From Deltaproteobacteria bacterium (GTDB taxonomy: Bacteria > Lernaellota > Lernaellaia > JACKCT01), in NCBI GenBank assembly GCA_020845895.1, contig JADLEX010000106.1:1-40686 (forward strand): DNA of 40,686 nt, in the 5' to 3' direction. Shown piece by piece: positions 7,508 through 35,952 of the stretch. The notes beneath the pieces are model-generated. The model was not told where the DNA came from and searched no databases. It saw only the letters and a program-made list of their open reading frames with translations. The translations under genes were made by a program, and so were the position numbers. The stretch's first letter is position 1. Each line of letters opens with the position of its first letter.

Positions 7508-7869
7508 TGGCGTGGCATCCGCCGCCGCTATCCCACTGGCTGTCCCTTTATCTGAAGACGCTCGCCATCGAGATCCCGATTTACGCGCTGCTCTCGCGAC
7601 CCATTGTCGCCCCGTCGCGGGCGATCCTCGCCGCCGTTCTCTGCTCCACCATCACGCATCCGATTCTGATCTACGGCTGGCCGCGCCTGATGCCGGATTA
7701 TCAAACCTACATCGTCAGCGGAGAGATTCTCGTGGCGATCGTGGAGAGTACGATCTTCTACATTGTCGCGAGGCCGATCTCTTGGTCCCGCGCGATCGCG
7801 GCGTCGTTCATGGCCAACGGGGCGAGCTTCGGGATCGGTGTGCTCGTTTCCCATTTGAGCAGAGGGTGA
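7507..7869 (+). CDS. small polytopic membrane protein
   Basis: This 120-residue protein begins at an ATG overlapping the stop of the SCO-like gene (TAATG), which implies coupled translation. Three or four hydrophobic helices are visible (about 16-32, 35-55, 68-88, 95-115) with few charged residues. I recognise no family. Its place as the last gene of the ctaB-ABC-SCO operon makes an accessory role in respiratory complex assembly plausible. The next gene is convergent and ends 22 bp away. Confidence 0.75.
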   Translation: MAWHPPPLSHWLSLYLKTLAIEIPIYALLSRPIVAPSRAILAAVLCSTITHPILIYGWPRLMPDYQTYIVSGEILVAIVESTIFYIVARPISWSRAIAASFMANGASFGIGVLVSHLSRG

Positions 7870-7891
7870 GGTCTTCGCGCTCCCCGGGCGT

Positions 7892-8971: not shown

Positions 8972-9444
8972 CAGGAGGATTTTCCTTCACGCCGGCTCAG
9001 GACGAGAGCCAGCACGCCAATCCCCAGCATCCCCGCACTCAGGAATGAGCCGGTCTCCGCGTTGGACACGCCGCACACGGCGCAGTCCGAGTCATCGCCG
9101 TCATTGGAAGCATTCCCCTCACCGCTAGGATCGCTGCCGCACACACACTCGTCGAAATCCGCACAGCCGGTGAAGCTCAAGCACGGTTCCATGCTTCTCG
9201 GAGGTGCTTCAACGCACGCATCGAAGAAATCCTCGGGCAGGCAGGTCGTACCGCAGTATTCCGCGAGATTAGTGAGCGCTTCACAGAAAGCACGATCCGC
9301 GTCGTTCGCATCGTCCGCATCGTTATCCGCCGACGATCCGTCGTCAATGTCGTCCCACCCGCCCGGGCCTTCCGACCAGTCCGCCGCGGAGATCAGGGGA
9401 CAAAGCCAAATCAGCGCCGCAACGATCCCAAACATGACGCGCAC
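8971..9444 (-). CDS. secreted Cys-rich protein with MYXO-CTERM-like tail
   Basis: This 157-residue protein has a signal peptide (cleavage about residue 20), an Asp-rich linker and a compact domain of regularly spaced cysteines (FC-x9-C, TTCLPE, EPCLSFTGC, CVCG). The C-terminal sorting tail is a Cys motif (CAVCGVS), a hydrophobic helix (FLSAGMLGIGVLALVL) and SRREGK, the layout of MYXO-CTERM domains that are cut and lipid-anchored at the Cys. The start is GTG at 9444, 10-11 nt after a GGAGGCGGAC ribosome-binding site. The same site and spacing precede the start of the paralog at 10145. The two share cysteine pattern, tail and leader. Confidence 0.82.
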   Translation of the reverse strand: MRVMFGIVAALIWLCPLISAADWSEGPGGWDDIDDGSSADNDADDANDADRAFCEALTNLAEYCGTTCLPEDFFDACVEAPPRSMEPCLSFTGCADFDECVCGSDPSGEGNASNDGDDSDCAVCGVSNAETGSFLSAGMLGIGVLALVLSRREGKSS

Positions 9445-9574
9445 TGTCCGCCTCCAAAATGCCGGATACGTTGCGCCCCGAATTCAATCCATAGAAGTAG
9501 CGTCCATCGATCCTCTAGCCCAATAACACTTTTCTTCAGACAACCGACGGCGGTGCGCATCGGCGCCTCGCACT

Positions 9575-9655
9575 AAGAGCCCGCCGCCCTTCGCGCGGAG
9601 CAACGACGGGGAGCTGGCCTGGAGAATCACGGTGTTCGTCGTGGCGTCGATGAGA
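9575..9655 (-). pseudogene. remnant of a duplicated MFS gene 5' region
   Basis: Read on the minus strand, this stretch encodes VGLIDATTNTVI, aligning with HLLIDATTVTVI near the N-terminus of the MFS transporter at 7892-8971. The nucleotide match (tcgacgccac-acgn-caccgt) is clear over about 40 bases and then decays. The remnant sits directly after, and partly within, the 3' end of the second MYXO-CTERM-like gene, the same position the intact MFS gene has after the first. This indicates a two-gene duplication followed by loss of one MFS copy. Confidence 0.5.
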
Positions 9656-10145
9656 CCGACTTCCCTTCGCGTCGGCTCAGAACTAGAGCGAGCACGCCGA
9701 TACCCATCATCCCCGCACTCAGGAACGAACCGGTCTCCGAGTTGGAAACACCGCAGCCGCCGCAGCCGTCGTCATCATCATCGTCGTCGTCATCGTCGGC
9801 CGACGAATCATCCGCGTCGTCGTCTGACTCGCCGGCGGGATTCTCATCCGCGTCATCGTCAACAGGTTCCGTTCCGCACAAACACGCGTTGACGTTGGCG
9901 CAACCGGAAATATTCAGGCATGGGCGTATGTCCCACGGAGGGTCCGAAAGGCACGCTTCCACGTAACCCTCCGGGAGGCAGGTCGTCTCGCAGTGTTCGA
10001 CGGTAATGGTGAGCGCATGGCAGAATTGCTCAGCCGTGGGCTCGGGATCGTAATCATCATCCCAATCGTCGTCGCCCCAATCGGCGCTTGCGCCGGACGA
10101 AAGCAGAAGAATCACCACGCCGAGAAATCCCGTCTTCACACCCAT
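9627..10145 (-). CDS. secreted Cys-rich protein with MYXO-CTERM-like tail, paralog
   Basis: From ATG 10145 (GGAGG 8-12 nt upstream) this 172-residue protein has a signal peptide, an acidic stretch, and the same cysteine domain as its neighbour at 8971-9444: FC-x9-C, TTCLPE, ACLSDPP, PCLNISGC, CLCG. A long run of about ten Asp residues and a CGGCGVS motif follow, then the hydrophobic tail FLSAGMMGIGVLALVLSRREGK. Twelve extra residues after the tail (SVSSTPRRTP and so on) come from read-through into remnant MFS sequence, because the original stop seen in the paralog has been deleted. An ATG 39 bp upstream would add a non-hydrophobic, Arg-rich N-terminus and is unlikely to be used. The protein is probably surface-exposed; the function is unknown. 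Confidence 0.8.
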   Translation of the reverse strand: MGVKTGFLGVVILLLSSGASADWGDDDWDDDYDPEPTAEQFCHALTITVEHCETTCLPEGYVEACLSDPPWDIRPCLNISGCANVNACLCGTEPVDDDADENPAGESDDDADDSSADDDDDDDDDDGCGGCGVSNSETGSFLSAGMMGIGVLALVLSRREGKSVSSTPRRTP

Positions 10146-10391
10146 GGTCCGCCTCCAAATACACCGTATTCGGTGCGCCCCCATTCATTCCATGACCATA
10201 AAGGTCGGTGATTTCGATGTTCAAGTCAAGAATTTTCTCCTTCACCGTCGCGGGCCGTTGGATCGCGAGGTTCCCACTTCCGATCGGTGTTTTCAAAATC
10301 GCGAATTCGCTGCAAGCTAACGAGCATTAACGCACGAACCCCGTCCCGATCATCCGCCCGATCATTCGGCGAACGGAGAGGTCAAACCGGC

Positions 10392-10829
10392 ATGACTCTG
10401 AAAAGGCGCCCCATCCACGCCCCGCGAGTCCTGAACGAAGCGTACGATTACGACCGCCCCGTTCCATTCAGTCGCGGGATGCGCCTCGATTGGAACGGCG
10501 CATCAGCGCTCCTGATCTCCGGCACCGCGAGCGTCGATGAAAACGGCGCCACGGTTCACGCAGGGGACCTTCGCGCCCAGATCCGCCGAACGTTGGCCAA
10601 CATCACGGAACTGCTCGCCGTCGAGGGAATGACCTGGCGCGATGTGGTTTATACACGCATCTACCTTCGAGACATCGATCGCGACTACGACACCCTGCGA
10701 GAGGAACGCCTGCTTTTTTTCGAAGAACAGGGAATCAAGACCTATCCGGCGAGCTGCTGCGTCGAAGCCCGACTGTGCCGCGCCGATCTCCTCGTGGAAA
10801 TCGAGACCCTCGCTACCGTGGCCCCCTAA
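10392..10829 (+). CDS. RidA/YjgF-family protein
   Basis: This 145-residue protein matches the RidA-like chorismate-mutase-fold family: SGTASVDENGATVHAGDLRAQ in the centre, an LAVEGMTWRDVVYTRIYLRDI block, and the C-terminal PASCCVEARLCRADLLVEIE segment holding the conserved Arg and Glu of the trimer-interface pocket. Canonical RidA deaminates enamines/imines from PLP enzymes; side branches of the family have other substrates. The start at 10392 places a GGAGAGGT ribosome-binding site about 12 nt upstream. It stands alone between divergent and same-strand genes without an obvious pathway partner. Confidence 0.85.
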   Translation: MTLKRRPIHAPRVLNEAYDYDRPVPFSRGMRLDWNGASALLISGTASVDENGATVHAGDLRAQIRRTLANITELLAVEGMTWRDVVYTRIYLRDIDRDYDTLREERLLFFEEQGIKTYPASCCVEARLCRADLLVEIETLATVAP

Positions 10830-10946
10830 GCGGGGAGGCAGACGTCGAGCGTGCGTGGCACACCCCGCCTTGCCGCGTCTCGCGAAAACCCCCATGCTGC
10901 TTCAATCCGTTTTTCGTCGGTCCCGGTTTTCGTCGGAGGTTCGCCC

Positions 10947-21361: not shown

Positions 21362-23446
21362 TCAGTGCGGACCGGCGGTGAGCGCCTCGGCCTCGGCGAG
21401 CAGCGACTCGACCTCCTTGGCGATCACCTTGGCGTACTCGAAATTGTGCTGCCCGCGTTTCGCGCTCACGAGATCGAGATCGCGCCGAATCAAAATCAGC
21501 CGATTCGAGATCTCGGTCGTGTTCTCCTTCTTCGCGACGCGCTCGTCCACGACCTTTTGGATCGCGTCCACGCGCGGCAACAACTTCGCCGTCAAATCGC
21601 CGAGCGCCGCGAGCTGCATGTCGGCTTTGGCCGAATATGTCGCGTCGTGGCAGTTCGCGCAGGTCGCCTTGACCCCGTCGAGGGTCGTCGTTTGCCCGCC
21701 CTTCGTCTGCACATGGCAATCGACGCATTCGATGTTTGCGTTCATCGGATCGGGATTCCCCGTCACGATGGCCGCCCCGCTTCCCTTCGTCAGGTTGCCG
21801 ATGTTCTGATGACAGTCGGCGCAATCGACCTTGCCCTGCCCCGTTCCATGGTGACAGCCGCTGCACGTGACCATGTTCGTCACGCCGTGCTGCGCGCCTT
21901 CGCCGTGGCACATCGTGCATTCGAACCCAAGGTCCACCACGTGCTTTTTGTGCGGATACTCGACGGAACCGAGTTTCACCTTTCGCTCGGTCATCTCGGC
22001 GTGGCACAGGTTCGTGCAATTCAGCGTGAAGGGCTCGACCGTCTGCGCCGTGTATCCCGGCGTCAGCTTTTCGAGGGCCTGCTCGCTGCGCGCCTCGGCC
22101 GCTTCGAGCGCCTTGATGGCGTACTGCACGTTGTGGTGCCCGCGCGCACGCCTCACGAAATCGACGTTGTGAGCTGCCTCGCCGACGAGTTTCGCGGCTT
22201 CGTCTTTCTTGGCGGGCTCGATCGCGCCCGCGGCGGCCAGCGCGTTTTGCGCCTTGACGAGCCGTGCGCCCGCCCGCGTTTCGCGCTCGAACATCAGGTT
22301 GCGCCACTGCGTGAGCATGGCGTCGTACCCGGGCCCGTGGCAGTCATTGCAGGCTTGCCCATGAACCAGTGAGGCGAGATCGGTGGCCGAGCGGTCGTCC
22401 GGCCCGGACAGACGTTTCACGTGGCACGACGCGCAATCGACGTTGGCCAGATACATACGGGCGGGCTCGTCCGGCACGCCGATCGCGCCGGTGCCCTTGT
22501 ACAGTTCTCGCGGTCCGATGTGCTGATTCGAGGCATGGCATACGGTGCAGTTGGTCTCGAACGACTCGCTGGTCGGGTTCCGCACGATCTCGTGCTTGAT
22601 GACGTCGTGGCAGCGCCAGCACTCGACCTTGTGATTCGTCACGTGGTTCAGATGGTACGACTCAATCGTGTACTTGTCTTTGATGATCTCCTTGAGGGTC
22701 CTCTCGCGCTCGCTGTGGCACTCCATGCAATGGTCGAAATCGACGTTGCCCGCGCCCTCGATGATTCCCTGGTGGCAATTCGTGCAGGCGATGCCGGATT
22801 CGATGTAGCGCCCGTGCGCGAAGGTTTGTCCCTCGGCGAGATGAATCTCGCTTGGAACGGTCTTGTGGCAAGTGCGGCAATCGGAGAGCACTGGGTCGCG
22901 CGCGCCGTTTTCGTCGGCCTTGAAGTGGCAGATGAAGCAATCGCGCGGATCGACGGACAGGTGCTCGCCCTGCACCAACTGGCCGTGACACGTCACGCAG
23001 CGCAGCTTTTTCTCGCGGCGCATCGTACCCAGATGGTTCTCGTGGGAGAACGAGATGCCCTGAAAGTCCTTGGCGTCGTGCAACTGCTCGGAGCTGTGGC
23101 ACTCCTGGCAGCTCAGGTCGGAGATTTCGGCGTGGTATTTGCCCTTCGTTCGGCCCGTCATGAACATGACGAGATGGACTTGGCCGTCCGTAAATTTGCC
23201 CTTCAGGTAATTCCACGTTCCGGGTTCATAGTGGCACTGGGCGCACTGGACCTGATTGTGCGAACTGGTGCGCCAGCTCTCCACGTAGGGCTGCATGTTG
23301 TGGCACGAAGCGCAGAAGTCCGGCGAGCTGGTCGCTTCGAGAAACGCGAACGCCACGAAGGCCACGAAAAGGACCGCGCCGCCCGCGATCAGGAGACGTC
23401 GATTTCGCTTCGATTTGCGTGCCGACCACTCATCCATCGTTGGCAT
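21362..23446 (-). CDS. 18-heme c-type cytochrome with NapC/NirT-like anchor
   Basis: This 694-residue protein has a basic N-terminus, one membrane anchor (about residues 18-37) and 18 heme-binding motifs: 17 CxxCH plus one CxxxCH (CTNLCH). The first site is followed by NMQPYVESWRTSSH, the pattern of NapC/NirT/NrfH quinol dehydrogenases (C-x2-CH-x-M, then W and S-x-H). Helical stretches between the twelfth and thirteenth sites and at the C-terminus lack hemes (for example HNVQYAIKALEAAEAR and HNFEYAKVIAKEVESL), a repeat seen in multiheme oxidoreductases of the NrfA/HAO superfamily. I infer that it takes electrons from menaquinol at the inner membrane and passes them to periplasmic cytochromes. 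It has its own sigma-54-like promoter and terminator, so it is transcribed separately from the porin unit. Confidence 0.9.
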   Translation of the reverse strand: MPTMDEWSARKSKRNRRLLIAGGAVLFVAFVAFAFLEATSSPDFCASCHNMQPYVESWRTSSHNQVQCAQCHYEPGTWNYLKGKFTDGQVHLVMFMTGRTKGKYHAEISDLSCQECHSSEQLHDAKDFQGISFSHENHLGTMRREKKLRCVTCHGQLVQGEHLSVDPRDCFICHFKADENGARDPVLSDCRTCHKTVPSEIHLAEGQTFAHGRYIESGIACTNCHQGIIEGAGNVDFDHCMECHSERERTLKEIIKDKYTIESYHLNHVTNHKVECWRCHDVIKHEIVRNPTSESFETNCTVCHASNQHIGPRELYKGTGAIGVPDEPARMYLANVDCASCHVKRLSGPDDRSATDLASLVHGQACNDCHGPGYDAMLTQWRNLMFERETRAGARLVKAQNALAAAGAIEPAKKDEAAKLVGEAAHNVDFVRRARGHHNVQYAIKALEAAEARSEQALEKLTPGYTAQTVEPFTLNCTNLCHAEMTERKVKLGSVEYPHKKHVVDLGFECTMCHGEGAQHGVTNMVTCSGCHHGTGQGKVDCADCHQNIGNLTKGSGAAIVTGNPDPMNANIECVDCHVQTKGGQTTTLDGVKATCANCHDATYSAKADMQLAALGDLTAKLLPRVDAIQKVVDERVAKKENTTEISNRLILIRRDLDLVSAKRGQHNFEYAKVIAKEVESLLAEAEALTAGPH

Positions 23447-23783: not shown

Positions 23784-24137
23784 TTACGCTCCGTGGCAGG
23801 TCTTGCAGTCCTTCGGATACTGCGGGCCCTTGGCCGACTTCTTGTGACAGTCGCCGCACTGCTTGTGGAACGCGTCCTTGCCGGGGCCGGCGCCGTCCTT
23901 GCCCGCTTCCGTGTGGCAGGTCGTGCACTTGGAGCCCTGGCCCTTCGGATCCTTGTGATGACAGACTTGGCAGTCGTTGCCGACCTTGGTCAGGTGAGCC
24001 GGATGGTCGAACTGCACGGGCTTTTTGCCGCTGACCGAGACCGTGATCTTGCCCGCCGGCCCGGCGGCCGACGTCGCCAGACTCACCAGTCCCACCGAGC
24101 ACAGCACCACCACCGAAAACATCAGGAACTTCTTCAA
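23784..24137 (-). CDS. tetraheme cytochrome c3-like periplasmic shuttle
   Basis: This 117-residue secreted protein has a signal peptide cut near AASA/AG (about residue 25) and four CxxCH motifs (Cys56, 71, 94 and 111). Extra histidines at 45, 48, 61 and 91 could be the distal ligands, giving four bis-His hemes as in cytochrome c3/c7 families. Many lysines suggest docking to acidic partners. The start is TTG at 24137 with GGAGGG about 7 nt upstream; no nearby ATG preserves the signal peptide. It lies 42 bp after the 22-heme gene and is the last gene of the porin-cytochrome operon. It probably carries electrons across the periplasm. Confidence 0.88.
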   Translation of the reverse strand: MKKFLMFSVVVLCSVGLVSLATSAAGPAGKITVSVSGKKPVQFDHPAHLTKVGNDCQVCHHKDPKGQGSKCTTCHTEAGKDGAGPGKDAFHKQCGDCHKKSAKGPQYPKDCKTCHGA

Positions 24138-24179: not shown

Positions 24180-25934
24180 TCAGGGGTACACGTGACATGC
24201 CGTGCAGGCGAGTCCGACGTCTCCGCCGCTCGAATCGGCTCCGTGACACAATGACGCGCAGCCGGTATCGCCGTTGGTATCGACATACGTGTCGTGCGTG
24301 GTCACCCACCCGCTCTCGTGCGGATACAGGGTGTGACAGGTGAAGCACGAGGTCGCGTTGGGGCTCTGCCAGTCGTTGCCGTGGCAAACCTTGCACGACT
24401 CCTTGCCCGTATCGAGCACCTGCTGGCCGTGCTGGCCGGCTTGGGCATAGCCCGCCACGTGCGGGAACCCCGTGTGGCAGGTGTAGCAGGACACTCCCGA
24501 CTGGCCGCCGGTGTAGTCGGCGCCGTGGCAGACGCCGGCGCAGTTTTCCAGGCCGATGTCGTAAGCCGTCGCGCCGTGGTCGTCGGGCGCGGTCCAGCCG
24601 TCCGCGTGCGGGTACTGATGACAATCGGTGCACGCGACCTGCGAGTCGCCGCCCGCAAACGTCTCGCCGTGGCAGCGCGTGGCGCAGTTGTCGTTGTCGC
24701 TCGCCATCGCCGTCACGCCGTGCTCTTGCCAGTCCGCCCAGTTCGCGTCGTGCGGATAGTCCGCGTGGCAGGTGAAGCAGGAGACGTTGGTGTCTCCGCC
24801 GGCGAAGTCGGTTCCGTGGCACGCGGTGGCGCAGTTCGTCTGACCGTTCTCGATCACGTCCATTCCGTGGTTGTCGGGATCCGACCAGTTGGCCGCGTGC
24901 GGGTAGGTGTGGCACTGGTAGCACGACACCTCGGAATCGCCGCCCTGATAGTCCGTGCCGTGGCACAGCGTGGCGCAGCCGTTCGCCGTGTTGTTCAGCA
25001 CGTACTGTCCGTGCGCGTCCTTGTCCGACCAGCCCGCGTCGTGCGGATAGTTCGCATGGCACTGCGTGCATGCGACGCCCGTGTCGCCGCCGCCAAGGTC
25101 GCTTCCGTGGCACGCGGTGGCACAGGTCTCGTTGCCCGCGTCCAGCGCCCGGCCGCCATGCTCGCGCGGCTGATCCCAGTCGGTGTCGTGCGGATAGTCG
25201 GCGTGGCACTCGAAGCACGAGCCCGCCACGTCGCCGCCCTGGAAGTCCTGGCCGTGACAGACGGTGGCGCAGTACCGGTTGTTGTTGTCCAGCACCCAGC
25301 CGCCATGCTCGTCCTTGTCGGCCCAGTTGTTCTCATGCGGATAGAGTTCGTGGCATTTGTTACAGGAGATTCCGGAGTACCCGCCCTGCAGATCCGATCC
25401 GTGGCACGCCGTCGCGCAGTTCGCGTCCTGACCGCCTTCCTTGCTGTACTCGCCGTGGTTGTTCGGATCGCCGAAGTCGGTCTCGTGCGGGTACAGCGCG
25501 TGGCACTGCGTGCAGGAGACCTTGGCGTCGCCGCCCTTCAGGTCTTCGCCGTGGCAGACCGTGGCGCAACTCTGATTGCGCGTGTCGAACGCCTCGAGGC
25601 CGTGCTCCGTGATCTGCGCCCAGTTCTCGGGATGCGGATAGTTCGCGTGGCACGAGGTGCAGCCGACCTTCGACCAGCCGCCGTCCAGTTTTTCCCCGTG
25701 GCAGGCCACGCACGCCGTGGTCCCCTCGTCGAGCACGTAGATGCCATGCTGCTTCGGCTGGTCCCAGTCGTCCGGATGCGGGTATTCCACGCGCTCCGCT
25801 TCCTCGCCTTCGATCGGCGCCTCGGGGTTGGGGTCCATGCAGGCCGCGAGCCCCATGGCGAGAATCGCGAGGAACAGCGCCGCCGTCATCCCCTGGATCG
25901 CCGTGGCCATTTCCGATTTTTCCCGACTCGACAT
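24180..25934 (-). CDS. 22-heme repeat lipoprotein cytochrome
   Basis: This 584-residue lipoprotein has a lipobox GLAAC (Cys32) followed by about 11 tandem units of roughly 50 residues. The unit consensus is YPH-x3-W-x5-HG, about 11 residues, a first heme motif with trailing G-x-D-x2-GGD, about 4 residues, then a second heme motif. Most units have CxxxCH first (CATVCH, CATACH, CATLCH and so on) and CxxCH second. Units 1 and 10 have CxxCH in both places. In all there are 22 motifs: 13 CxxCH and nine CxxxCH. The WxxxxxHG and YPH histidines could be distal ligands. The repeats suggest a linear heme wire. Position after the porin and 12-heme cytochrome suggests the outer-surface partner of the conduit. 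A GAGGTGA ribosome-binding site supports the start. Confidence 0.88.
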   Translation of the reverse strand: MSSREKSEMATAIQGMTAALFLAILAMGLAACMDPNPEAPIEGEEAERVEYPHPDDWDQPKQHGIYVLDEGTTACVACHGEKLDGGWSKVGCTSCHANYPHPENWAQITEHGLEAFDTRNQSCATVCHGEDLKGGDAKVSCTQCHALYPHETDFGDPNNHGEYSKEGGQDANCATACHGSDLQGGYSGISCNKCHELYPHENNWADKDEHGGWVLDNNNRYCATVCHGQDFQGGDVAGSCFECHADYPHDTDWDQPREHGGRALDAGNETCATACHGSDLGGGDTGVACTQCHANYPHDAGWSDKDAHGQYVLNNTANGCATLCHGTDYQGGDSEVSCYQCHTYPHAANWSDPDNHGMDVIENGQTNCATACHGTDFAGGDTNVSCFTCHADYPHDANWADWQEHGVTAMASDNDNCATRCHGETFAGGDSQVACTDCHQYPHADGWTAPDDHGATAYDIGLENCAGVCHGADYTGGQSGVSCYTCHTGFPHVAGYAQAGQHGQQVLDTGKESCKVCHGNDWQSPNATSCFTCHTLYPHESGWVTTHDTYVDTNGDTGCASLCHGADSSGGDVGLACTACHVYP

Positions 25935-25951: not shown

Positions 25952-26980
25952 TCAGTGACTGTGGCACTCGGCGCACATCCGGTCCGTCTGCTTCACACCC
26001 TGGGGATCCCATCCCTTGGGGTGCGGATTGAGTCCCAATGAAGAGCGGTGACAGGTCCGGCAATCGCCGGGGCCGCCGCGATCGTGGCAGCTCGCGCACG
26101 CGAGGGTCTCGGTGCGGGCTTTTTCGCCGTGGAAATCCTGGGAGCCCTTCGTCATCCAGCCCGCGGGGTGCCGGTAGACGGACGTCTCGGCACGCGCCCC
26201 GACGCCGCGCTGATTGTGGCAGTCAGTGCAGGATTTCGTGCCGTGGCACTTGAGGCACGAGGCCTGATTGACCTTCGCCTCGATGCGATGCGTGGTTTCC
26301 CAGTCGCCGCGATGGATGAGGCCCGCCCGCACCTTCTCGGGGTACTTCAGGCTGGGCTTCAGGTCCTCGTGCTTGTTGTGGCAATCGAGGCAGTAGCTCT
26401 CGGTATGGCACTGCGTGCAGGTCTTGCCGTTTTTGCGCGCGTATTCCGAGTGCCGCCCCATGAAGTCGTTCGCGTGCTTATAGGACGACAGCTTCGTTAG
26501 ACCGATGCCGCCGAAGTCCATGTGGCACTTCGCGCATAGCATCTGGTCGAAATCTTCCTGATGGCATTCCACGCACTTCGCATGGTCGGGCTTGCCGATG
26601 CCCGCGCCGACGCCGTAGGCGCCGTGGCAGTCCTGGCATTTCTTGTCGAATTCCTTGTGCGCGACGTGCGAAAACCCGACCGCCCGCTTGTACGACTTCG
26701 CGGGTTCGTAATTCAGCGCCTTCACGTCCTCGTGGCACGCCTTGCAGGATTCGAGCGAGGGGACGACGCGCATCACGCCGCCGTCTTTTTCGATCGCGCC
26801 GTGACAGACGTTGCATTCGAGTCCGACGTTCGCATTCAGGTGCTTGGCGTGCAGGTCCTTGGCGGAAACCGTCGTCTTCGCCGGCGCGGTCGCCGCTCCC
26901 GCGAGAACGATTGCGAGCGCCGCGACACCGAGCACGAGCGCGAAAGCCAAACCGCGGTGTTGATGGGGAAACGCGCGCAT
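25952..26980 (-). CDS. 12-heme secreted c-type cytochrome (porin-embedded partner)
   Basis: This 342-residue protein has a signal peptide (MRAFPHQHRG then a hydrophobic core, cleavage near ATAPA) and 12 CxxCH motifs spread evenly along the chain, beginning CNVCH and ending CAECH. No lipobox is present, so it is periplasmic. The ATG at 26980 shares a base with the porin's stop (TAATG), which signals coupled synthesis; a GTG 9 bp upstream is an alternative. Size, heme number and pairing with a porin match the electron-conducting cytochromes that sit inside the barrel of MtrAB- or OmaB/OmbB-type conduits (those carry 8-12 hemes). Sequence similarity to those was not testable here. Confidence 0.88.
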   Translation of the reverse strand: MRAFPHQHRGLAFALVLGVAALAIVLAGAATAPAKTTVSAKDLHAKHLNANVGLECNVCHGAIEKDGGVMRVVPSLESCKACHEDVKALNYEPAKSYKRAVGFSHVAHKEFDKKCQDCHGAYGVGAGIGKPDHAKCVECHQEDFDQMLCAKCHMDFGGIGLTKLSSYKHANDFMGRHSEYARKNGKTCTQCHTESYCLDCHNKHEDLKPSLKYPEKVRAGLIHRGDWETTHRIEAKVNQASCLKCHGTKSCTDCHNQRGVGARAETSVYRHPAGWMTKGSQDFHGEKARTETLACASCHDRGGPGDCRTCHRSSLGLNPHPKGWDPQGVKQTDRMCAECHSH

Positions 26981-28239
26981 TAGAGCCACCGTTCCACGTT
27001 GTAGGTGATCTTGAGGAGCCCGCGAACATCCGAGTCGTAATACGGCGTGGCGCGGTAGATGCCGGTCGCCTGCACGCCGAGCTTCTTCGTGATCGCGTAG
27101 CCGAGGCTCAGGTCGCCGTCGAAGGCCTGATCGACGCCGTAGATCTCGTTGTCGAGCTGATAGAGGTTGCTGTTCACGGCGACGTGCGCCTTGTCGAACA
27201 GTCCCTGATACAGATAGGCGCGGATTTCGCTGTAACCGTTATCGCCGCGGTCGAGGCGGTAGTAGCGGCCGCCCAGCACGTTGCCGCGCGCCGCGCCCCA
27301 CAGCAGTTCGAGGCCTCCGCCGGGCCGGGACGCGTTGTCGGCTTCGTCGTAGGTGTAGGCCGCGTAGCCACCGATCGCGCGCACCCGATTCAGGATCAGG
27401 TACGACAACTCGGCGTCGGCGATGTCGAGGGTCTCGGCGGAGAACACCGAGAAGTAGTTCATCGCTCCCAGGAACGCCGAGGGGAACAGGTGCGTGTACG
27501 TGCCGGTCACGCGAAGGTCGTTGACGGGATTAAGATTGAGCTGGCCGGTCGCGTCGTAAACTTCCTGATAGATCTGACTGAACCAGACGTGGCCGACGAG
27601 ATCGATGTATTTGATCGGGGCGATGCGCAGGTCGCCGCCGACGTTGTTGCGGTCCCAGCGGTGCTTTTCGAGCCCCGCGCCGTAGGCCGCGCCGAGTTCG
27701 AAATAGCCCTTGAATTCGTAGGAAACGCGGGCGCCCCAGGCGAAGTCGCCGTCGCGCTCGCCGATGCGCGAATACGCCGGCATGCCGCCGAACATCTGAA
27801 TGTTGAAGCCGCAAAACGGCGTGAGCAGCAGATCGACCGCGTCCATGATCTCGGCGGTCGGTCCCGACACCACGAAGTGCCGGCCGAGCTTCGCGTCCAC
27901 CAGCCCGTCGAGGCCCTTCCACTGCAGGTAGGCGTAGGTTAGATCGGCGTCGCCGGGTTGCTCCTGATCTTCATCTTCGGTGTCCGCCGCGTCCCAGCGG
28001 CCCCAACCCGAGAAGTGCAGCGTCATTCCGGAGACGCCGAACTCCTGGGCGTGGACGTCCGCGTATTCGTAGAGCGAAAAGCGGCTGGTGTCCCGCCCGA
28101 GCCAAGATTCTTCGTAAACCGAGGAAAGCGTTTTCGAGCTTCCGTAGAAGTCCGCCGCCAGACCCGGCGCGGCCCAGACGCCCAGAATGATCAGGGCGAG
28201 AAGGACCGTCACGGCTCGTGATTTCATCCCGGTGTTCAT
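26980..28239 (-). CDS. outer-membrane beta-barrel porin of a cytochrome conduit
   Basis: This 419-residue protein has a signal peptide (MKSRAVTVLLALIILG, cleaved after GLAA) and a mature part of alternating polar/apolar strands rich in Tyr, Trp and Gly (for example DLTYAYLQWKGL, VSYEFKGYFELGAAYGAG, LGGRYYRLDRG). It ends in a strand with aromatic and hydrophobic residues (LLKITYNVERWL), though not in the terminal Phe usual for porins. There are no heme motifs. The start at 28239 follows GGAAAGGG by about 9 nt; a longer in-frame start would add a non-hydrophobic leader. As first gene of the operon, coupled to the 12-heme cytochrome, it is the likely sheath of a porin-cytochrome electron conduit. 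The role is inferred from gene order, not from a named family match. Confidence 0.85.
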   Translation of the reverse strand: MNTGMKSRAVTVLLALIILGVWAAPGLAADFYGSSKTLSSVYEESWLGRDTSRFSLYEYADVHAQEFGVSGMTLHFSGWGRWDAADTEDEDQEQPGDADLTYAYLQWKGLDGLVDAKLGRHFVVSGPTAEIMDAVDLLLTPFCGFNIQMFGGMPAYSRIGERDGDFAWGARVSYEFKGYFELGAAYGAGLEKHRWDRNNVGGDLRIAPIKYIDLVGHVWFSQIYQEVYDATGQLNLNPVNDLRVTGTYTHLFPSAFLGAMNYFSVFSAETLDIADAELSYLILNRVRAIGGYAAYTYDEADNASRPGGGLELLWGAARGNVLGGRYYRLDRGDNGYSEIRAYLYQGLFDKAHVAVNSNLYQLDNEIYGVDQAFDGDLSLGYAITKKLGVQATGIYRATPYYDSDVRGLLKITYNVERWL

Positions 28240-28292
28240 GTCATGCGCCCTTTCCGGCGAAGCGCAGTGGGTTCGTCCCGCGTCGGAAATAG

Positions 28293-28307
28293 GCAAATCG
28301 GGTGCCA
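28293..28307 (-). promoter_or_regulatory. sigma-54 (-24/-12) promoter of the porin-cytochrome operon
   Basis: The minus strand reads TGGCACCCGATTTGC, matching TGGCAC-N5-TTGC at every specified base with the exact GG-N10-GC spacing. The predicted start of transcription is near 28281, giving a leader of about 40 nt to the ATG at 28239. Confidence 0.72.
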
Positions 28308-28397
28308 AGACCCAAAACCCGTGTCACGGTTAAGTCATTGAATTTTCGACGAAATACTATTGAGACCGGGTATCGACAAGCGGATTCACCGCCGGTC

Positions 28398-29001: not shown

Positions 29002-30321
29002 CTAGGACCAGGCGGACACCCTTGGAAACAACCGCATGGACAATAAATAATCCGCGAAGCGGAACAGAGAGACCGCCAGGTGCCCGGCATCCTCGACGAA
29101 ACCGAAAAACCCCGGCCAACGGTCGAGCCGCGTATAAAACGCCGCCATCATTTGAATCAAGCGCCAGCGGAGGATTCTGTCGGACTGACGCGTGGCGGCG
29201 TCGTGCCGGAGCTTGGCGCCGAAAGACTCCTCGTAGGCGCCGACGGAAACGACGCTGAGGCGCGTTTTCCGGAGGTATCGAATCGTCTCCCTCCGGTCCT
29301 TTTCCCGTTCACCGGGGACGCCGATCATGAAGTGGCCGATGGTTTTGATCCCGCGCCGCTTCATCATCTCGACCGCGCGGGGGACGTCGGCCAACTCGAA
29401 GTCCTTATTCAGGGCCCGCAAGAACTCCGCCGATCCCGTTTCCACACCGATGTGCGCGTACTCGAATCCCGCATCCGCCATCGCATCCACGATCTCCCGG
29501 CTCAAAGGATTCGGCCGGAACCAACACGTGAAACGCATGCCGGGGAAACGCCGGGCGATGGTTTCACACAGGCGTATGGTATTGGTTGCCGAAAGGTTGA
29601 ACGTCGCTTCCCGAAAAAAAACCTTGCGGACTCCCATGTCGTAGAGAAACTCCAGTTCCTCGATCACCCTTTCCAAGGGCCTGAACATGGGTGCTCCGAG
29701 ATCGGGCACCGGACAGAAGGAGCACTTCGACGAACACCCGTGCGATCCGTAAACGGATGCGAATGGGGGTTTCCAATAAGGAAGATAATACTGGTCCAAA
29801 CGGAGCAATTCGTGGCGCGGCACACCGTAGTCCACGGGATCCCGTTTCCAATCGGAAACGACCTTCCCGTTCTCCCACCAGGCTGCGTTGATCGGTGCTT
29901 CGCCGCGCATTCTCCGCACGAAGCCCTGGGACGTGAAATCGGCCAGGATTCCGTCGAGGAACGAGTATTCTTCGAGAAAAACCTCCTTTTGGCCGTAAGT
30001 GATATCCCCTTCGGCGAAAATCACCGCACCGGTGGTTTCCTTGATCCAGCGCAGGATGCGCATGTCGGAGTCGATGGTGGGCCAGGCAACGAGAGAGAAA
30101 ACGCCGTCGGGCCGAAACGCCTTCAGGGTGCGTTCCAACGCTTTGAATCCCGGAGTTACCACGCCGTCGTGTATCCGCAGTTCCATGTCGCGCATGTGGG
30201 CGGATTGGATCAGCAGGTCAAGGGGATGCCATATGTACATGGCGGATTTAGCCGTCGGGTGAATCGTGTCCCTCATGATGGGCCGTTCGGCCGGAGGATT
30301 CAGAAGAAGGATTCTAGTCAT
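29002..30321 (-). CDS. radical-SAM protein with B12-binding-like N-terminus (copy A)
   Basis: This 439-residue protein has an N-terminal Rossmann-like domain of about 180 residues beginning ILLLNPPAERP. The radical-SAM cluster motif CSSKCSFC (Cys196, 200, 203) and a TIM-barrel half with IGVETGSAEFLRAL and HFMIGVPGE motifs follow. The DxHxxG motif that supplies the lower cobalamin ligand is not visible, so B12 would have to be bound base-off without His or not at all. The C-terminus is amphipathic and aromatic. The start at 30321 follows GGAGGACCC. Its ATG overlaps the stop of the epimerase gene (ATGA). It is similar in plan to the protein at 31208-32641 and probably a duplicate of it. Confidence 0.87.
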   Translation of the reverse strand: MTRILLLNPPAERPIMRDTIHPTAKSAMYIWHPLDLLIQSAHMRDMELRIHDGVVTPGFKALERTLKAFRPDGVFSLVAWPTIDSDMRILRWIKETTGAVIFAEGDITYGQKEVFLEEYSFLDGILADFTSQGFVRRMRGEAPINAAWWENGKVVSDWKRDPVDYGVPRHELLRLDQYYLPYWKPPFASVYGSHGCSSKCSFCPVPDLGAPMFRPLERVIEELEFLYDMGVRKVFFREATFNLSATNTIRLCETIARRFPGMRFTCWFRPNPLSREIVDAMADAGFEYAHIGVETGSAEFLRALNKDFELADVPRAVEMMKRRGIKTIGHFMIGVPGEREKDRRETIRYLRKTRLSVVSVGAYEESFGAKLRHDAATRQSDRILRWRLIQMMAAFYTRLDRWPGFFGFVEDAGHLAVSLFRFADYLLSMRLFPRVSAWS

Positions 30322-31208
30322 GGGTCCTCCTTCGCGGAAAACGCCCATGCGCGGGGTGTGTAGAGACTCGGCCAGACGGGTTCGCAGCGCCAATCGCGAC
30401 CCAGGAAGAACGCCGCATCGGCGTTGCCCAGCCGGCGGAACAACCACGGCTGTAATAAAAATCCTGGAATCGGCGGGTGAAACGCTTTTTTGCCGACGCG
30501 GTTTTCGTAGTGCCGGGCGACGTTTCGCCATGAATACTCTCGCCCGTCGGTCAGCAAAAAAACGCGCCCTTCGGCATGCGCCTCGTCGGCCAGCATGCAC
30601 AACATCACAGCCAGTTCCCTTTCGTGAACGGCGGAAAAACGCCCACGGGCCACCGGAAAAACGCGGCGCGCGGCCATTTTCAGAAAACGTCGGGAAAACC
30701 GATCATGAGGCCCGACGACCATGGGAATCCGACCGATGACGCAACGCGGATAGCGGGAAGCGACGTTTTCCCCTTCCCATTTCGAACGCCCGTACGCAGT
30801 GAGCGGAAGGGGCGGTGAGTCGATCGTGAGCGCGCGACCGTCGGTGTCGGGGGCATAAACGGCGATGGTGGAAGCGAAAATCAACCGGGGGGGCCGGGGG
30901 AGACCGGCGAGGGCTTCGACCAAGTTGCGCGTTCCGTCCACATTGACACGACGCAGATGCTCTTCACCCGCGTCGGAGTCCAGTGCCGCCGCCAGATGAT
31001 AGACGGTGTCGACGCCGACAAACCATTCCGGGGAGATGGTGTTCAGATCGCCGCGAACGGTTTTCACGCCGGGTGTTTCCATCGGCCGACGGTGAATCAG
31101 CACCGTCACGTCCGCGCCGAGCGTCAGCAACTCATCGATCAGAGGCCGACCGATCGCTCCGGTTCCGCCGGTGACGAACACCCGCCGCCGAGTCTCCATC
31201 GCGTTCAT
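30318..31208 (-). CDS. NAD-dependent epimerase/dehydratase (extended SDR)
   Basis: This 296-residue extended short-chain dehydrogenase has the dinucleotide motif GGTGAIG (about residues 14-20), HLAAA, a STIAVYAP segment with the catalytic Ser, and YGRSK (Tyr-x3-Lys). Enzymes of this type act on sugar nucleotides, sterol-like or acyl substrates. It lies between two radical-SAM genes and overlaps both (TGATG upstream, ATGA downstream), so all three are co-translated and probably act in one pathway. The substrate is unknown. Confidence 0.88.
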   Translation of the reverse strand: MNAMETRRRVFVTGGTGAIGRPLIDELLTLGADVTVLIHRRPMETPGVKTVRGDLNTISPEWFVGVDTVYHLAAALDSDAGEEHLRRVNVDGTRNLVEALAGLPRPPRLIFASTIAVYAPDTDGRALTIDSPPLPLTAYGRSKWEGENVASRYPRCVIGRIPMVVGPHDRFSRRFLKMAARRVFPVARGRFSAVHERELAVMLCMLADEAHAEGRVFLLTDGREYSWRNVARHYENRVGKKAFHPPIPGFLLQPWLFRRLGNADAAFFLGRDWRCEPVWPSLYTPRAWAFSAKEDP

Positions 31209-32641
31209 CACCCACCCAAACCCAGGATCTGCCGGAAGAACAACTGCCGGAAATTGCGCAAATAACTGTACAGCACGAAGCGGTTCCGCAACCGGGACAG
31301 ACGCCGGGCCCAGAACTTCGGACTGAGATAGAAACGTCGATAGAAGCGCTTTTTCCATCTTTCCAGTTCGGCGCGATCGAAATCCCGTGAACAGGAGTCT
31401 CCGAACTCGAGCGGCACCGACTCGCCGCTCAAAGCCCTGTCCGGGGTCACCGCGGCGCCCATCAGTTCCGCGCCTGGCCGTGGTTCGAAAACGTTGAAGG
31501 ACGCGAAGTCGATATGGGCGCGGCGAAGAAACGCCTCGGTTTGCATGACTGTATCCCGGCTTTCTCCGGGCAGCCCGAGCAGGATGTGGGAGAGGGTTTC
31601 GATGCCGTGCCGTCGGCAGGCTTCCAGTGTCCCCAACGAGCGATCCATCCGAGCGCTCGGCTTGTGCTTTTCGAGGAGTGCCGGGCTGCCGGTTTCCAGG
31701 CCGAATGCAATGAAGCGGCAACCGGCTCGGGCCATCAGCGCGACTTGCGGGTCGTCCAACTGATCGGCGCGGGCGTTGCAGAACCACTCGACCTTCCAAT
31801 TCATTTCCAGGATGGTGTTGCAAAAGAACTCAACATAACGAGGGTCGCAGTTGAACGTCGCATCCCGAACCTGAAGGCTTCGATAACCGCGCCCGGCGAT
31901 CCAGGCCAATTCGTCGGAAATTTCGTCAAAATGACGTTTTGCGAAGTGAAGGGAACCGGTGTTGCAATACGTGCAGGAATGCGGGCACGCGTGGGACAAT
32001 AGGATCCCCGCCGTGGGAGTGGGCAGACCGAAGGGGAATCGGTATCGACGCGAAGAAAACAGATCGTGCAAAGGGATCGGGTAGCCGAAACTCGCCCCGG
32101 TGGGTATACGACCGACAACCGTTCGCCCTTCGCGGCGATGCGTAATGCCGGCGTCCGGGCTCAGGAATCCCCGCATACTCCAAGCGGCCAGATCGGGAGT
32201 TGCAATGTCCAGCAGAACGCCGTCGATCCAGGGCGTGGTGTTCAAGACCGCTTCGCTGTGGAACCGGGGGAGATCTCCGCTCACGGCGAGCAACGTTTCC
32301 GTCGCCCGTTTCAACCGCTCAAAGAACGGACGGTCCTCCTTCCAGGAGAGGTGGCTGGTCAACGACAGCACCACGCGCGGGGCGAGTTCGGCGATTCGGT
32401 CGATCGTCCGATCCGCATCCCAACCTTCTATGATCGCGTCGATGAGCACCACGTCGTGGTCGGCGGCGAGGAATCCGCTTTGCACCAGCAGGTCGAGCGG
32501 CTGCCAGTAGTAGTGAGCCTTGTCGATGCTGCTGCAGTAACAGTCCCGGATGTAGCGTTGAGTCCCCGGCGGATTGAGCAGGACGGCAAAGGGCCGACGT
32601 GCCGGTTGTTCGTCGATTCTCATTGCCGCCGAGCCTATCAT
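31208..32641 (-). CDS. radical-SAM protein with B12-binding-like N-terminus (copy B)
   Basis: This 477-residue protein has FAVLLNPPGTQRYIRDCYCSS at the N-terminus, a Rossmann-like domain without DxHxxG, the cluster motif CPHSCTYC (Cys219, 223, 226), FGLETGSPALLEKHK and ILLGLPGES barrel motifs. Its C-terminus is strongly basic and aromatic (YRRFYLSPKFWARRL) and may bind a membrane or lipid. The arrangement NPPG-x-n-YYWQPLDLL is shared with the protein at 29002-30321. The start at 32641 has a weak GGAACGG site; an ATG at 32623 is an alternative. It heads the three-gene minus-strand operon. Confidence 0.87.
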   Translation of the reverse strand: MIGSAAMRIDEQPARRPFAVLLNPPGTQRYIRDCYCSSIDKAHYYWQPLDLLVQSGFLAADHDVVLIDAIIEGWDADRTIDRIAELAPRVVLSLTSHLSWKEDRPFFERLKRATETLLAVSGDLPRFHSEAVLNTTPWIDGVLLDIATPDLAAWSMRGFLSPDAGITHRREGRTVVGRIPTGASFGYPIPLHDLFSSRRYRFPFGLPTPTAGILLSHACPHSCTYCNTGSLHFAKRHFDEISDELAWIAGRGYRSLQVRDATFNCDPRYVEFFCNTILEMNWKVEWFCNARADQLDDPQVALMARAGCRFIAFGLETGSPALLEKHKPSARMDRSLGTLEACRRHGIETLSHILLGLPGESRDTVMQTEAFLRRAHIDFASFNVFEPRPGAELMGAAVTPDRALSGESVPLEFGDSCSRDFDRAELERWKKRFYRRFYLSPKFWARRLSRLRNRFVLYSYLRNFRQLFFRQILGLGG

Positions 32642-32653
32642 CCGTTCCGGAGA

Positions 32654-32689
32654 GTGACAATAAAAGTGACGTCAAGAGTGACAATCAAC
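32654..32689 (-). promoter_or_regulatory. three 12-bp direct repeats overlapping a promoter
   Basis: Plus-strand GTGACAATAAAA, GTGACGTCAAGA and GTGACAATCAAC follow each other without a gap. On the minus strand the same bases give TTGATT (32688-32683), a 17-bp spacer and TTTTAT (32665-32660), a plausible sigma-70 promoter for the gene starting at 32641. Phased GTGAC repeats across a promoter are typical of an operator. Confidence 0.4.
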
Positions 32690-32878
32690 ACGAAAAGCGG
32701 GAGCCGCGGAGGCGACGGGAATTTGCAAGGCGACAACTCGGCCGAAAGCCGACCGGCGGGTCGCTCGACCCGCCTCGGGTCGGGGATGGCGCAACCCGAA
32801 CCGGAAGGGAAGTGGCGGTCGGTATAGAGAAAGTCCGAGGGGAGAAGCGCACGCGAGCGATCGATCCGCAGCCGATCG

Positions 32879-32898
32879 CACGGGGCGGCTGCCCCGTG
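32879..32898 (-). terminator. strong hairpin after radical-SAM gene
   Basis: CACGGGGC (32879-32886) and GCCCCGTG (32891-32898) form a perfect eight-pair stem with a 4-nt loop, 71 bp after the stop of the upstream minus-strand gene. No T-tract follows, so factor-independent termination is uncertain. Confidence 0.35.
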
Positions 32899-32968
32899 AT
32901 CCAGCCGGACGCGTCCGCGGGAACGCCCGTCCGCAGCATCCGCTCGCCGTTCAATTCCGAGTATGCAC

Positions 32969-34465
32969 CTAATGGCTCGGGTGTCTGCACGCCACCGGGC
33001 TCGGCGCGGTTTGCACGTCTCGGCGCATGAACGCGGCGCTGACCCACTTCATCGAGAAGACGCTCAGCCGGTTGACCGCCGGAACGTTTCGGGCTTTCTG
33101 CACGAGACCGCTGTCGGCGATGCGCAGAAACCACGCCCAAACCGGGTGACTCGTTCGGTAAACCTCGTACCGGAATTTTCGCTGTGCGCGGCGGACGTCC
33201 TTCGCTGGGAACTGCGGCATATCGATGACCGACTCGCGATAGGTCCGAAATCCGCGCCAGTGACCTCGAAGCCATCCCTCCTTGGCGCTCATTTCCCAAA
33301 GCGAGCTTCCGGGAAACGGACTGAACACAAAGATCATTGGGCTCGGTCCGGTGCCGGGCGAGACCGTTGCGCGACGCGAGTAAACCCGTCGGTTCAGCTC
33401 TATTGTCTCGCGGTGCATCTCCGGCGTTTCATGAGGCAAACCGACCATGTTCGTCAGGTGAGGACGGATGCCGATTTCGTGCAGGTAGTCGCAGACTTCA
33501 ATCAGACGTTCGTTGCTGCACCCCTTTTTCAGGATTTCATTGCGGATGTAGTCGTTGCCGCTATCCGCGCCGAGCCAGATCACAGCGCAGTTGGACGCCT
33601 TGAGCGCGTCCATGAGTTCGTGGTCCAGGCAATCGGCGCGCGTGAGGATTTCATAGGGATACGCGAATTTCGCCGCGTATTTTTCGGCCCATTCCATCGC
33701 CCATTGTCGATTCCAGGTGAACGTATCGTCACGGAAATAGATGTGATCGAATTTGTATTTCCGCTCGAGCATCTCGATTTCGCCGAGGACATGCTCGACA
33801 CTGCGCAACCGGCAGAACTCCCCTTCTCCGAGGTGCGCCTGCGGCGGCACACCGCAGAACGTGCAAATACCAGGGCAGCCCCGTCCGGCCAAGAGCATCA
33901 CCCAACGGTAGTTGAAGTCGATCATCGCTTGATAGTCCACAGCGTCGTAATCCCAGAATGGCAGGGAGTCCAGGTCTTTCACGAAGCTGCGGCACGGGTT
34001 CTTAATGGGTTCGCCGTCTGTGCGAAACCACAGGTTCTTGATTCCGGTCGGGTCCGCTCCGTCGTTCAGCGCCTGGAGATAGTCGCGGAAGGCGTATTCG
34101 CCTTCGCCCACGCAAACAACGTCGATATCCTTGTAGTTGATCAGCGTATCGGGGGCGATGCTGGCGTTTTTTCCTCCACAGATCACCGGAACGTCCCTAC
34201 GCCACGCCTTGCTCGCGGTCGCCAACTCTTTCATGTACAACGCCTGCGAGCCGATGCCGGTGATGCCCACGACATCAGGCTCGAACGCCCGCAGCTCGTC
34301 CTGGAATTCGCGCAGCAGACGGTGCGTGTTGACGATGTGGATGCGCGTCTCATAGCCGAACTGCTTGAGATACGCCGACAACGCGCCGAGGTCCGTGGGG
34401 AAGACGTTCGGCATCAGAGTGTCCAAGTTGGGAAACACGAGCAGGATGCGTTGAAACGAGTTCAT
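32969..34465 (-). CDS. B12-binding-domain radical-SAM protein (copy C)
   Basis: This 498-residue protein has a clear cobalamin-binding-like fold: RILLVFPNLDTLMPNVFPTDLGALSAYLK, then DVVGITG, VICGGKNASIAPDTLI and VVCVGEGEYAF. The usual DxHxxG is absent. The radical-SAM motif CPGICTFC (Cys197, 201, 204) and RDDTFTWNRQWAMEW follow. This architecture is shared by BchE-, HpnJ- and P-methyltransferase-like enzymes doing cyclisations or methylations at unactivated carbons. The start at 34465 follows GGAAAGGAC. The last 25 residues (PSPVACRHPSH) look like non-conserved extension. It is divergent from the HgdB-like pair. Confidence 0.87.
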   Translation of the reverse strand: MNSFQRILLVFPNLDTLMPNVFPTDLGALSAYLKQFGYETRIHIVNTHRLLREFQDELRAFEPDVVGITGIGSQALYMKELATASKAWRRDVPVICGGKNASIAPDTLINYKDIDVVCVGEGEYAFRDYLQALNDGADPTGIKNLWFRTDGEPIKNPCRSFVKDLDSLPFWDYDAVDYQAMIDFNYRWVMLLAGRGCPGICTFCGVPPQAHLGEGEFCRLRSVEHVLGEIEMLERKYKFDHIYFRDDTFTWNRQWAMEWAEKYAAKFAYPYEILTRADCLDHELMDALKASNCAVIWLGADSGNDYIRNEILKKGCSNERLIEVCDYLHEIGIRPHLTNMVGLPHETPEMHRETIELNRRVYSRRATVSPGTGPSPMIFVFSPFPGSSLWEMSAKEGWLRGHWRGFRTYRESVIDMPQFPAKDVRRAQRKFRYEVYRTSHPVWAWFLRIADSGLVQKARNVPAVNRLSVFSMKWVSAAFMRRDVQTAPSPVACRHPSH

Positions 34466-34875
34466 TCCGACGTCCTTTCCGCGGGCCTGTCGTCCGGGTC
34501 TGGCATGCGCCAAGGTGGAAACGTGAAACTCCCGGCGGGTTTCGCCCAACTCTTCGGCGCACACGGAATGCGGGAACGCCTTCGAACCGCAGCCGAACCC
34601 GCGTCTCGCCCGGCACGAACCATTCACCACCATCTTCCGGTTCGCGTCAAGGCCGTTTCGGTGCAAACGACGAGATTCGCGGGGCGCTCCACGCGGCCGA
34701 AAAAAAACCGACGATTCGATTTCGAGGTGGCGCAAAGAACTCGTTTTCGCCTACCATCTTCGCCGGACAATGGACAGGATAGAAAGCCTTTTCTTGGTGG
34801 TATGACTTTCCATCGGTCGGATTTCCCCGATGAATGGCGAACCCAAGAGGCGCACCCGGACGGTCAGAGGGAAAG
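34466..34875. other. divergent intergenic region
   Basis: These 410 bp separate a minus-strand radical-SAM gene from the plus-strand HgdB-like genes and must carry promoters for both. Long frames across it lack sensible starts and composition. I see no promoter strong enough to name. An AGAGGGAAAG ribosome-binding site ends the region at the plus-strand start. Confidence 0.5.
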
Positions 34876-35952
34876 ATGCGGAATGATTCCTCCATCGGGG
34901 TCGATCGCTTGAAAGTCGGCACGACTTGCGAGTACGTCCCCGTCGAATTGATCGAAGCCGCCGGCGGCTGCGCGGTTCGCTTGACCGGAGCGGGAGGGCA
35001 TGACGGCAACATCGGTTTTTACACCCACGTCAATCTGTGTGGATACGCCAAGGCCGTCGTTTCCGAGGCTCTGGACGGACTCTACTCCGATCTCAGCGCG
35101 GTCGCCGTCATCAACAGTTGCGACGCCATGCGCCGCGTCGGCGACCTGTTCGCAACCGTGGCACCGAACCTCCCCTCCCATGTGATCGACATTCCGCGCC
35201 AATCGGACGACGAAGCCATCGACCTGTTCGTCGTCCGCCTTCGTCAGTTCGCCGCGTTTCTGGAGAGAGCGCTGTGCCGACGCGTCGACGAGGATGCGCT
35301 GGGCGACTGCATCGATTCCTCAAATCAGGCCCGCGCGTTGGCGGCCCGCTGGGAGGAGGAGGGGCGACGTGGAGGTTTTCCCAAAGGGCTTCGCTTCCAC
35401 TACGCTCCGTTGACGCAACGGCACCGGCAGACCTCGCGGGAGTTCGTCCGGGACATGACCGGCCAGCTCGAGGCGTGGAAAGCACAGACCCCGACACCCG
35501 CCGCCCCCCGCGGCAGGCCTCGCTTGCTGGTGACCGGCGGTTTTTCTCTTCTCGATGAGGTTTTCTCCGCGCTCGATCAAGCCGGCGTGGATGCCTGGGC
35601 CGTGGATCACTGCCACGCGGGCCGGATGACCAATCGGATCGAGCGGACGGACGATCCGTTTCGCGATCTTGCCGTCGCTTATCTCAATCGGAGGCCGTGC
35701 CCGCGCATGTCGTTTGCGGACCGCCGCATCGACTGGTTGGAGGAGGTGGTCCGCGATATGCGCGTCGACGGCATCCTGTACGTTCTTCTGGGGAATTGCG
35801 ATCAATTCATGTACGACGTAACCCTGCTCCGCGACCGCCTCCGCGACTCCGGGACGCCGCTACTCGTGCTGCAGACCTCAATGCCGGGCGCCCGGAACGA
35901 ACAGTGGAAAACCCGACTCGATGCGTTTTGCGAAATACTTCACGCTCGTTGA
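34876..35952 (+). CDS. 2-hydroxyacyl-CoA dehydratase (HgdB/BcrB)-family protein, smaller subunit
   Basis: This 358-residue protein fits the family of iron-sulfur dehydratase/reductase subunits (HgdB, FldC, BcrB/C). It has CEYVPVELIEAAG (Cys18), VNLCGYAKA (Cys55), INSCDAMRRV (Cys82) and, in the second half, RLLVTGGFSLLDEV, AVDHCHAGRM and YLNRRPCPRM, with ILYVLLGNCDQF near the end. The three N-terminal cysteines are those that usually hold the [4Fe-4S] cluster. The start at 34876 was chosen for its AGAGGGAAAG site. The larger homologous subunit follows 8 bp later. The ATP-dependent activator (HgdC type) these systems need is not in the window. Confidence 0.85.
   Translation: MRNDSSIGVDRLKVGTTCEYVPVELIEAAGGCAVRLTGAGGHDGNIGFYTHVNLCGYAKAVVSEALDGLYSDLSAVAVINSCDAMRRVGDLFATVAPNLPSHVIDIPRQSDDEAIDLFVVRLRQFAAFLERALCRRVDEDALGDCIDSSNQARALAARWEEEGRRGGFPKGLRFHYAPLTQRHRQTSREFVRDMTGQLEAWKAQTPTPAAPRGRPRLLVTGGFSLLDEVFSALDQAGVDAWAVDHCHAGRMTNRIERTDDPFRDLAVAYLNRRPCPRMSFADRRIDWLEEVVRDMRVDGILYVLLGNCDQFMYDVTLLRDRLRDSGTPLLVLQTSMPGARNEQWKTRLDAFCEILHAR

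Follow-up and report, generated by a model that had tools for sequence, protein, structure and literature searches.

A repeat-built 22-heme lipoprotein in a putative porin-cytochrome conduit of the uncultured phylum Ca. Lernaellota

The window analysed here, 40,686 nucleotides of contig JADLEX010000106.1 (assembly GCA_020845895.1), carries on its reverse strand a tight operon in the order P-D-C-B, in which P and D overlap by 10 bp, D and C are 17 bp apart, and C and B 42 bp; a further cytochrome gene, A, starts 337 bp beyond B (Table 1). Three consecutive radical SAM proteins, one of which has a clear B12-binding domain, are encoded upstream of the operon (29002-34735, reverse strand); at 34834-35949 on the forward strand there is a homologue of the 2-hydroxyglutaryl-CoA dehydratase D-component (PF06050), an anaerobic-type enzyme. 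A tblastn search of plasmids returned no match.

Table 1. Genes at the locus and subdivisions of lipoprotein C, in window coordinates.
Feature	Position	Strand	Basis
P, predicted outer-membrane beta-barrel porin of 442 aa, modelled with 22 strands and lacking a plug domain	26980..28308	-	structure model and fold matches
D, 12-heme periplasmic-type cytochrome, 345 aa, 10-bp overlap with the end of P	25952..26989	-	motifs, conservation
C, 22-heme lipoprotein, 584 aa	24180..25934	-	ORF and motif reading
C, signal peptide with lipobox LAAC, lipidated Cys32, then MDPNPEAP	25839..25934	-	sequence; C-x-x-PNPDAP-like start common to most class orthologues
C, unit 1 (CxxCH, CxxCH), N-terminal cap unit	25641..25784	-	CxxCH-first in 5/5 class orthologues
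C, units 2-9 (CxxxCH then CxxCH in each)	24468..25640	-	motif reading
C, unit 10 (CxxCH, CxxCH), GG mark lost	24327..24467	-	motif reading
C, unit 11 (CxxxCH, CxxCH)	24183..24326	-	motif reading
B, small tetraheme cytochrome, class III / TmcA-like	23784..24137	-	motifs, family matches
A, cytochrome with 18 motifs and an N-terminal NapC/NrfH-type anchor domain	21362..23446	-	motifs, domain match

P matches neither Pfam and NCBIfam models nor PDB sequences. Its AlphaFold model (22 strands, pLDDT 70, pTM 0.57) finds its best fold matches among outer-membrane barrels, namely FimD, AlgE and TonB-dependent transporters, with Z near 20, and no plug domain follows the signal peptide. By this model, P is an outer-membrane barrel encoded next to multiheme cytochromes, as is general for a porin-cytochrome conduit (PCC). 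In D, all 12 CxxCH motifs are invariant in six genomes; its nearest PDB entry is the c7-type multiheme cytochrome 3ov0 (E=3.8e-15, a score inflated by multiheme composition), whereas MtrA in the PDB is matched at E=0.07 only. A is found in just three genomes of the class, all of family f1, and is probably a quinone-side partner. Heme attachment machinery is present, since cytochrome c assembly proteins of the CcsA/CcmF type (PF01578) are encoded at two loci of the genome.

A reading of the sequence alone had described C as a lipoprotein with 22 heme sites in 11 units, and length, lipobox and motif count bear this out: 13 CxxCH and nine CxxxCH motifs are spread over 11 units of 47-50 aa, giving one heme site per 25 aa. 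As also claimed, nine of the eleven units put CxxxCH first and CxxCH second; the exceptions are units 1 and 10, so that the first site is CxxxCH in units 2-9 and 11 while the second is CxxCH throughout (11/11). The CxxxCH site had been called a five-residue motif, although it spans six. The YPH, W-x5-HG and GGD marks noted in each unit are real, but the frame they form is not strict: an F occurs in unit 3, FPH and Y occur in unit 10, where GG is also missing, HG is absent from unit 11, and GG stands without D in several units. The repeat pattern is nonetheless beyond chance, as the exact DNA pattern of the CxxxCH unit has nine matches in the window and none in 100 shuffles.

Across 28 intact units from five genomes ten columns are invariant (P2, H3, H13, C25, C29, H30, G31, C43, C46 and H47), that is, four heme Cys, four His, one Pro and one Gly. 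The units of the window genome have 28-59% of residues in common with each other and are often closer to a unit of another genus. The mature chain contains 44 His and 45 Cys, equivalent to two axial His per heme plus one lipid Cys in addition to the 44 heme Cys, with exactly two His per unit beyond those of the heme motifs. Two His ligands are therefore available at every heme and no heme need stay open for catalysis, so that, judged from composition, all 22 sites are potentially bis-His and none is an open catalytic heme. The mature protein is also acidic (82 acidic versus 17 basic residues).

C exceeds the curated cut-off of PF14522 (Cytochrome c7; 30.1 versus 24.8 bits), with the best stretch at residues 479-535 only, which is a generic heme-spacing match and no proof of a c7 fold. 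PF09698, the Geobacter repeat whose first motif has the longer CxxxxCH spacing (CxxxxCH...CxxCH) where units of C have CxxxCH, is absent among the matches of C at E up to 0.1. A profile of the unit yields only chance matches in the PDB (a DnaJ zinc finger at E=0.11) and no structural relative. An AlphaFold2 model of units 3-7, built on a 19-row alignment, was too poor (pLDDT 54, pTM 0.27) and was kept out of fold searches.

The window genome belongs to the class FEN-1099, which corresponds to Ca. Lernaellota (PMC13248872). P and D are single-copy and occur together in the same six of seven class genomes, and a lipoprotein, usually starting with a C-x-x-PNPDAP-like sequence, directly follows D in all six loci. 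What varies is the number of units: 11 in the window genome (G000), seven in G002, six in G001, four in G005 and one in G004, while in G003 the lipoprotein after D is a different, small heme protein that is not of the C-unit kind. The count in G002, a member of the same family as G000, comes from 14 motifs read over a broken frame, with the break in unit 2. In that assembly both C and the porin are frame-broken (L014, 9499-13109), and sequencing error seems a likelier cause than decay. In G005 the gene immediately upstream of the porin encodes another lipoprotein, with 16 hemes and repeats of a different type (L015, 2907-4256). Over the 29 units of the class, the first site reads CxxxCH in 22 and the second reads CxxCH without exception; unit 1 always begins with CxxCH.

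Orthologues that occupy the same place but carry different numbers of the unit support growth of the array by unit duplication, which the sequence-only reading had proposed along with a search for such relatives. When did this growth take place? Unit order is conserved between G000 and the two nearest genera, represented by G002 (P=0.0035) and G001 (P=0.013); with more distant class members of our sample no conservation of order was detectable. Conserved order with these two genera implies that most duplications are old, and the array therefore expanded mostly before the genera split, with gains and losses later. Two further observations bear on the role of C. Class members keep P-D-C without A, and members of family f3 also lack B at the locus, which makes C the constant partner of P and D. 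At the same time, the unrelated lipoprotein of G003 and the single unit of G004 indicate that the conduit can do without a long arm.

Relatives of the unit are also found outside the class. Searching 386 sampled genomes with four C units alone, we recovered relatives in 29, of which 24 lie outside the class; most of these have CxxCH-only units, examples being an eight-unit protein (G031) and one with 40 motifs (G136). The latter (L089, ORF 7751-10912) has 1054 aa with 40 CxxCH in a C-unit scaffold, and the 18-kb stretch examined with it contains no porin or D-like gene. Counting homologues of P and D near the unit protein at E below 1e-5, we find both in 9/26 non-class loci compared to 1/20 control regions from the same genomes, and the sole positive control region itself holds a C-unit protein. 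No porin homologue is present at this threshold in the other 17 loci.

The CxxxCH version is rare, in keeping with the claim that regular use of this spacing is uncommon. An exact-spacing scan of about 85,000 genomes produced 26 stretches, of which 24 fall within multiheme ORFs and come from 20 assemblies, a count that is a lower bound because exact spacing was required and near records may have been omitted. The remaining two stretches (L063 and L077) have no multiheme ORF and were rejected as chance matches. Hosts are Deltaproteobacteria, Oligoflexia, Thermodesulfovibrionia and a few others. The lipoproteins in these metagenome-assembled genomes (L058-L083) share with C the unit of about 49 aa and the CATxCH site, and they often have porin and D-like neighbours; one Thermodesulfovibrionia genome (L067) has the gene order P-D-C as in the window. 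They differ in that the two kinds of unit, CxxxCH and CxxCH, mostly alternate one by one, whereas in the window's class nearly all units after the first have CxxxCH. The first two letters after the Cys are AT at 33/58 CxxxCH sites outside the class and at 16/22 within it. One Deltaproteobacteria genome encodes three consecutive giant unit-type cytochromes with 13, 18 and at least 16 CxxCH (L076, 959-8000).

Porin-cytochrome conduits as a kind are already known, and several resemble the operon in the window. ExtABCD of Geobacter sulfurreducens combines the 12-heme ExtA, a barrel and two lipoprotein cytochromes (PMC6148476), and is thus, compared by description only, similar to P-D-C in having a periplasmic 12-heme cytochrome, a beta-barrel and outer-membrane lipoprotein cytochromes. 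It differs in that 18 transmembrane segments are predicted for ExtB against 22 strands in the model of P, its lipoproteins have 5 and 12 hemes against 22 sites in C, and no CxxxCH repeat array is seen in its description (PMC6148476). PCC3 of iron oxidisers comprises a porin, a periplasmic cytochrome and a many-heme extracellular cytochrome with sequence repeats that has been proposed to act as a wire (PMC5566968), again matching the window's porin, periplasmic cytochrome and repeat-built multiheme protein. However, PCC3 also includes a conserved inner-membrane protein of five helices that bears two WX3HX13H motifs (PMC5566968). A motif scan did not find it in the window or in five class loci; the protein near the window's operon is instead of the NapC/NrfH type. 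OmbB-OmaB-OmcB and MtrCAB share the architecture of a barrel with an inner and an outer cytochrome. At the sequence level P-D-C does not belong to MtrCAB or PioAB, as P has no NCBIfam or MtrB sequence match, though the barrels may be related in fold; MtrB-like barrels are not among the structural matches listed for P, which does not argue against kinship. D, with 12 hemes rather than the ten of MtrA-type proteins, does not reach the curated cut-offs set for the DmsE and OmcA/MtrC models. By analogy, P-D-C may work like ExtABCD and, as far as the repeats are concerned, like the extracellular cytochrome of PCC3; we claim membership in neither.

We therefore read C, with a probability of about 0.73, as the surface lipoprotein cytochrome of a porin-cytochrome conduit, a heme wire that has been lengthened by duplicating a two-heme unit. 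Several features fit the idea of a wire already put forward from the sequence: the heme density, the bis-His stoichiometry and the porin-cytochrome operon. The same reading had also offered a filament subunit, and it might be that C polymerises into an extracellular filament like OmcS or OmcZ that the conduit only feeds. Dense hemes and repeats would suit such a role, and independently arisen cytochrome filaments are known (PMC9473688). Yet C keeps its lipobox and sits within the P-D-C operon, unit number ranges from 1 to 11 with a one-unit version in existence, no solved filament cytochrome was found when the unit profile was compared with the PDB, and nothing tested favours polymerisation, so that we regard a filament as very improbable. 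Less easily dismissed, albeit still unlikely, is a location on the periplasmic side of the outer membrane, where C would store electrons or bridge the inner membrane to the barrel and no surface arm would exist. In this phylum the sequence of a lipoprotein does not tell whether it faces outwards or the periplasm, D by itself already provides a long chain of 12 hemes, and B and A nearby are periplasmic-side cytochromes. Against this, the lipoprotein cytochromes of conduits composed in the same way (OmcB, ExtC and ExtD) are placed at the outer membrane, where they form the outer part (PMC6148476), and it is C rather than A or, in f3, B that the class retains with P and D.

One may also ask whether the unusual sites bind heme at all. 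If CxxxCH, a non-standard motif that some maturation systems may not accept, were left without covalent heme, C would be a 13-heme protein whose extra Cys and His sites serve something else. We give this the least credence among the alternatives: both Cys, the adjacent His and the distal His are invariant at CxxxCH sites in 28 units, the same position switches between CxxCH and CxxxCH from unit to unit without loss of a His, and a heme on CXXXCH has been found by LC-MS in MmcA (PMC11024163). Conserved ligands and the MmcA precedent together suggest that the CxxxCH sites of C would carry heme as well.

Under the conduit reading, D would sit within or beneath the plug-less barrel P and carry electrons across the outer membrane, a function suggested by the composition of the operon. 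C would be held by its lipid at the outer face, and its 11 units, each with two bis-His hemes, would continue the heme chain outward as an arm; proximal His would come from CxxxCH and CxxCH, distal His from the YPH and HG positions. B and A would join the conduit to the quinone pool. The arm would have been lengthened by duplication of a unit in which the first heme site has one additional residue, mostly as CATxCH. In known wires such as OmcS hemes are spaced about 7-8 A each, and at such a spacing 22 hemes could reach up to about 15 nm. As for direction, A suggests quinol oxidation with electrons flowing outward; electron uptake is also possible given heme A/O synthesis-type genes in the window, which hint at a possible aerobic side. 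These genes, of CtaA/Cox15 type and UbiA type (possibly heme O synthase), lie on the forward strand at 1197-2075 and 4187-5062 and are followed by an ABC transporter; they suggest a heme-A terminal oxidase in the organism. A more far-reaching proposal, which we hold only tentatively and think rather doubtful, is that unit number (1 to 11, or 2 to 22 hemes) sets the reach of the conduit beyond the cell envelope, that the additional residue in CATxCH adjusts the geometry or the potential of alternate hemes, and that a graded wire thus evolved from a single two-heme block.

In sum, the earlier interpretation is partly supported: the array of C is real and well conserved, and the ideas of a wire and of growth by duplication are supported while that of a filament is not. 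To our knowledge, neither the CxxxCH unit and its rarity nor the natural length series has been described before. The class offers such a series for one protein, with 11, 7, 6, 4 or 1 units of two hemes each in one gene position, and relatives elsewhere carry the C-type unit with CxxCH only. Together they allow direct tests of the way conduction and reach change with the number of hemes in a single scaffold, and of the effect of CxxxCH on a heme. For the biology of the group, the range of porin-cytochrome conduits would now take in Ca. Lernaellota, an uncultured phylum.
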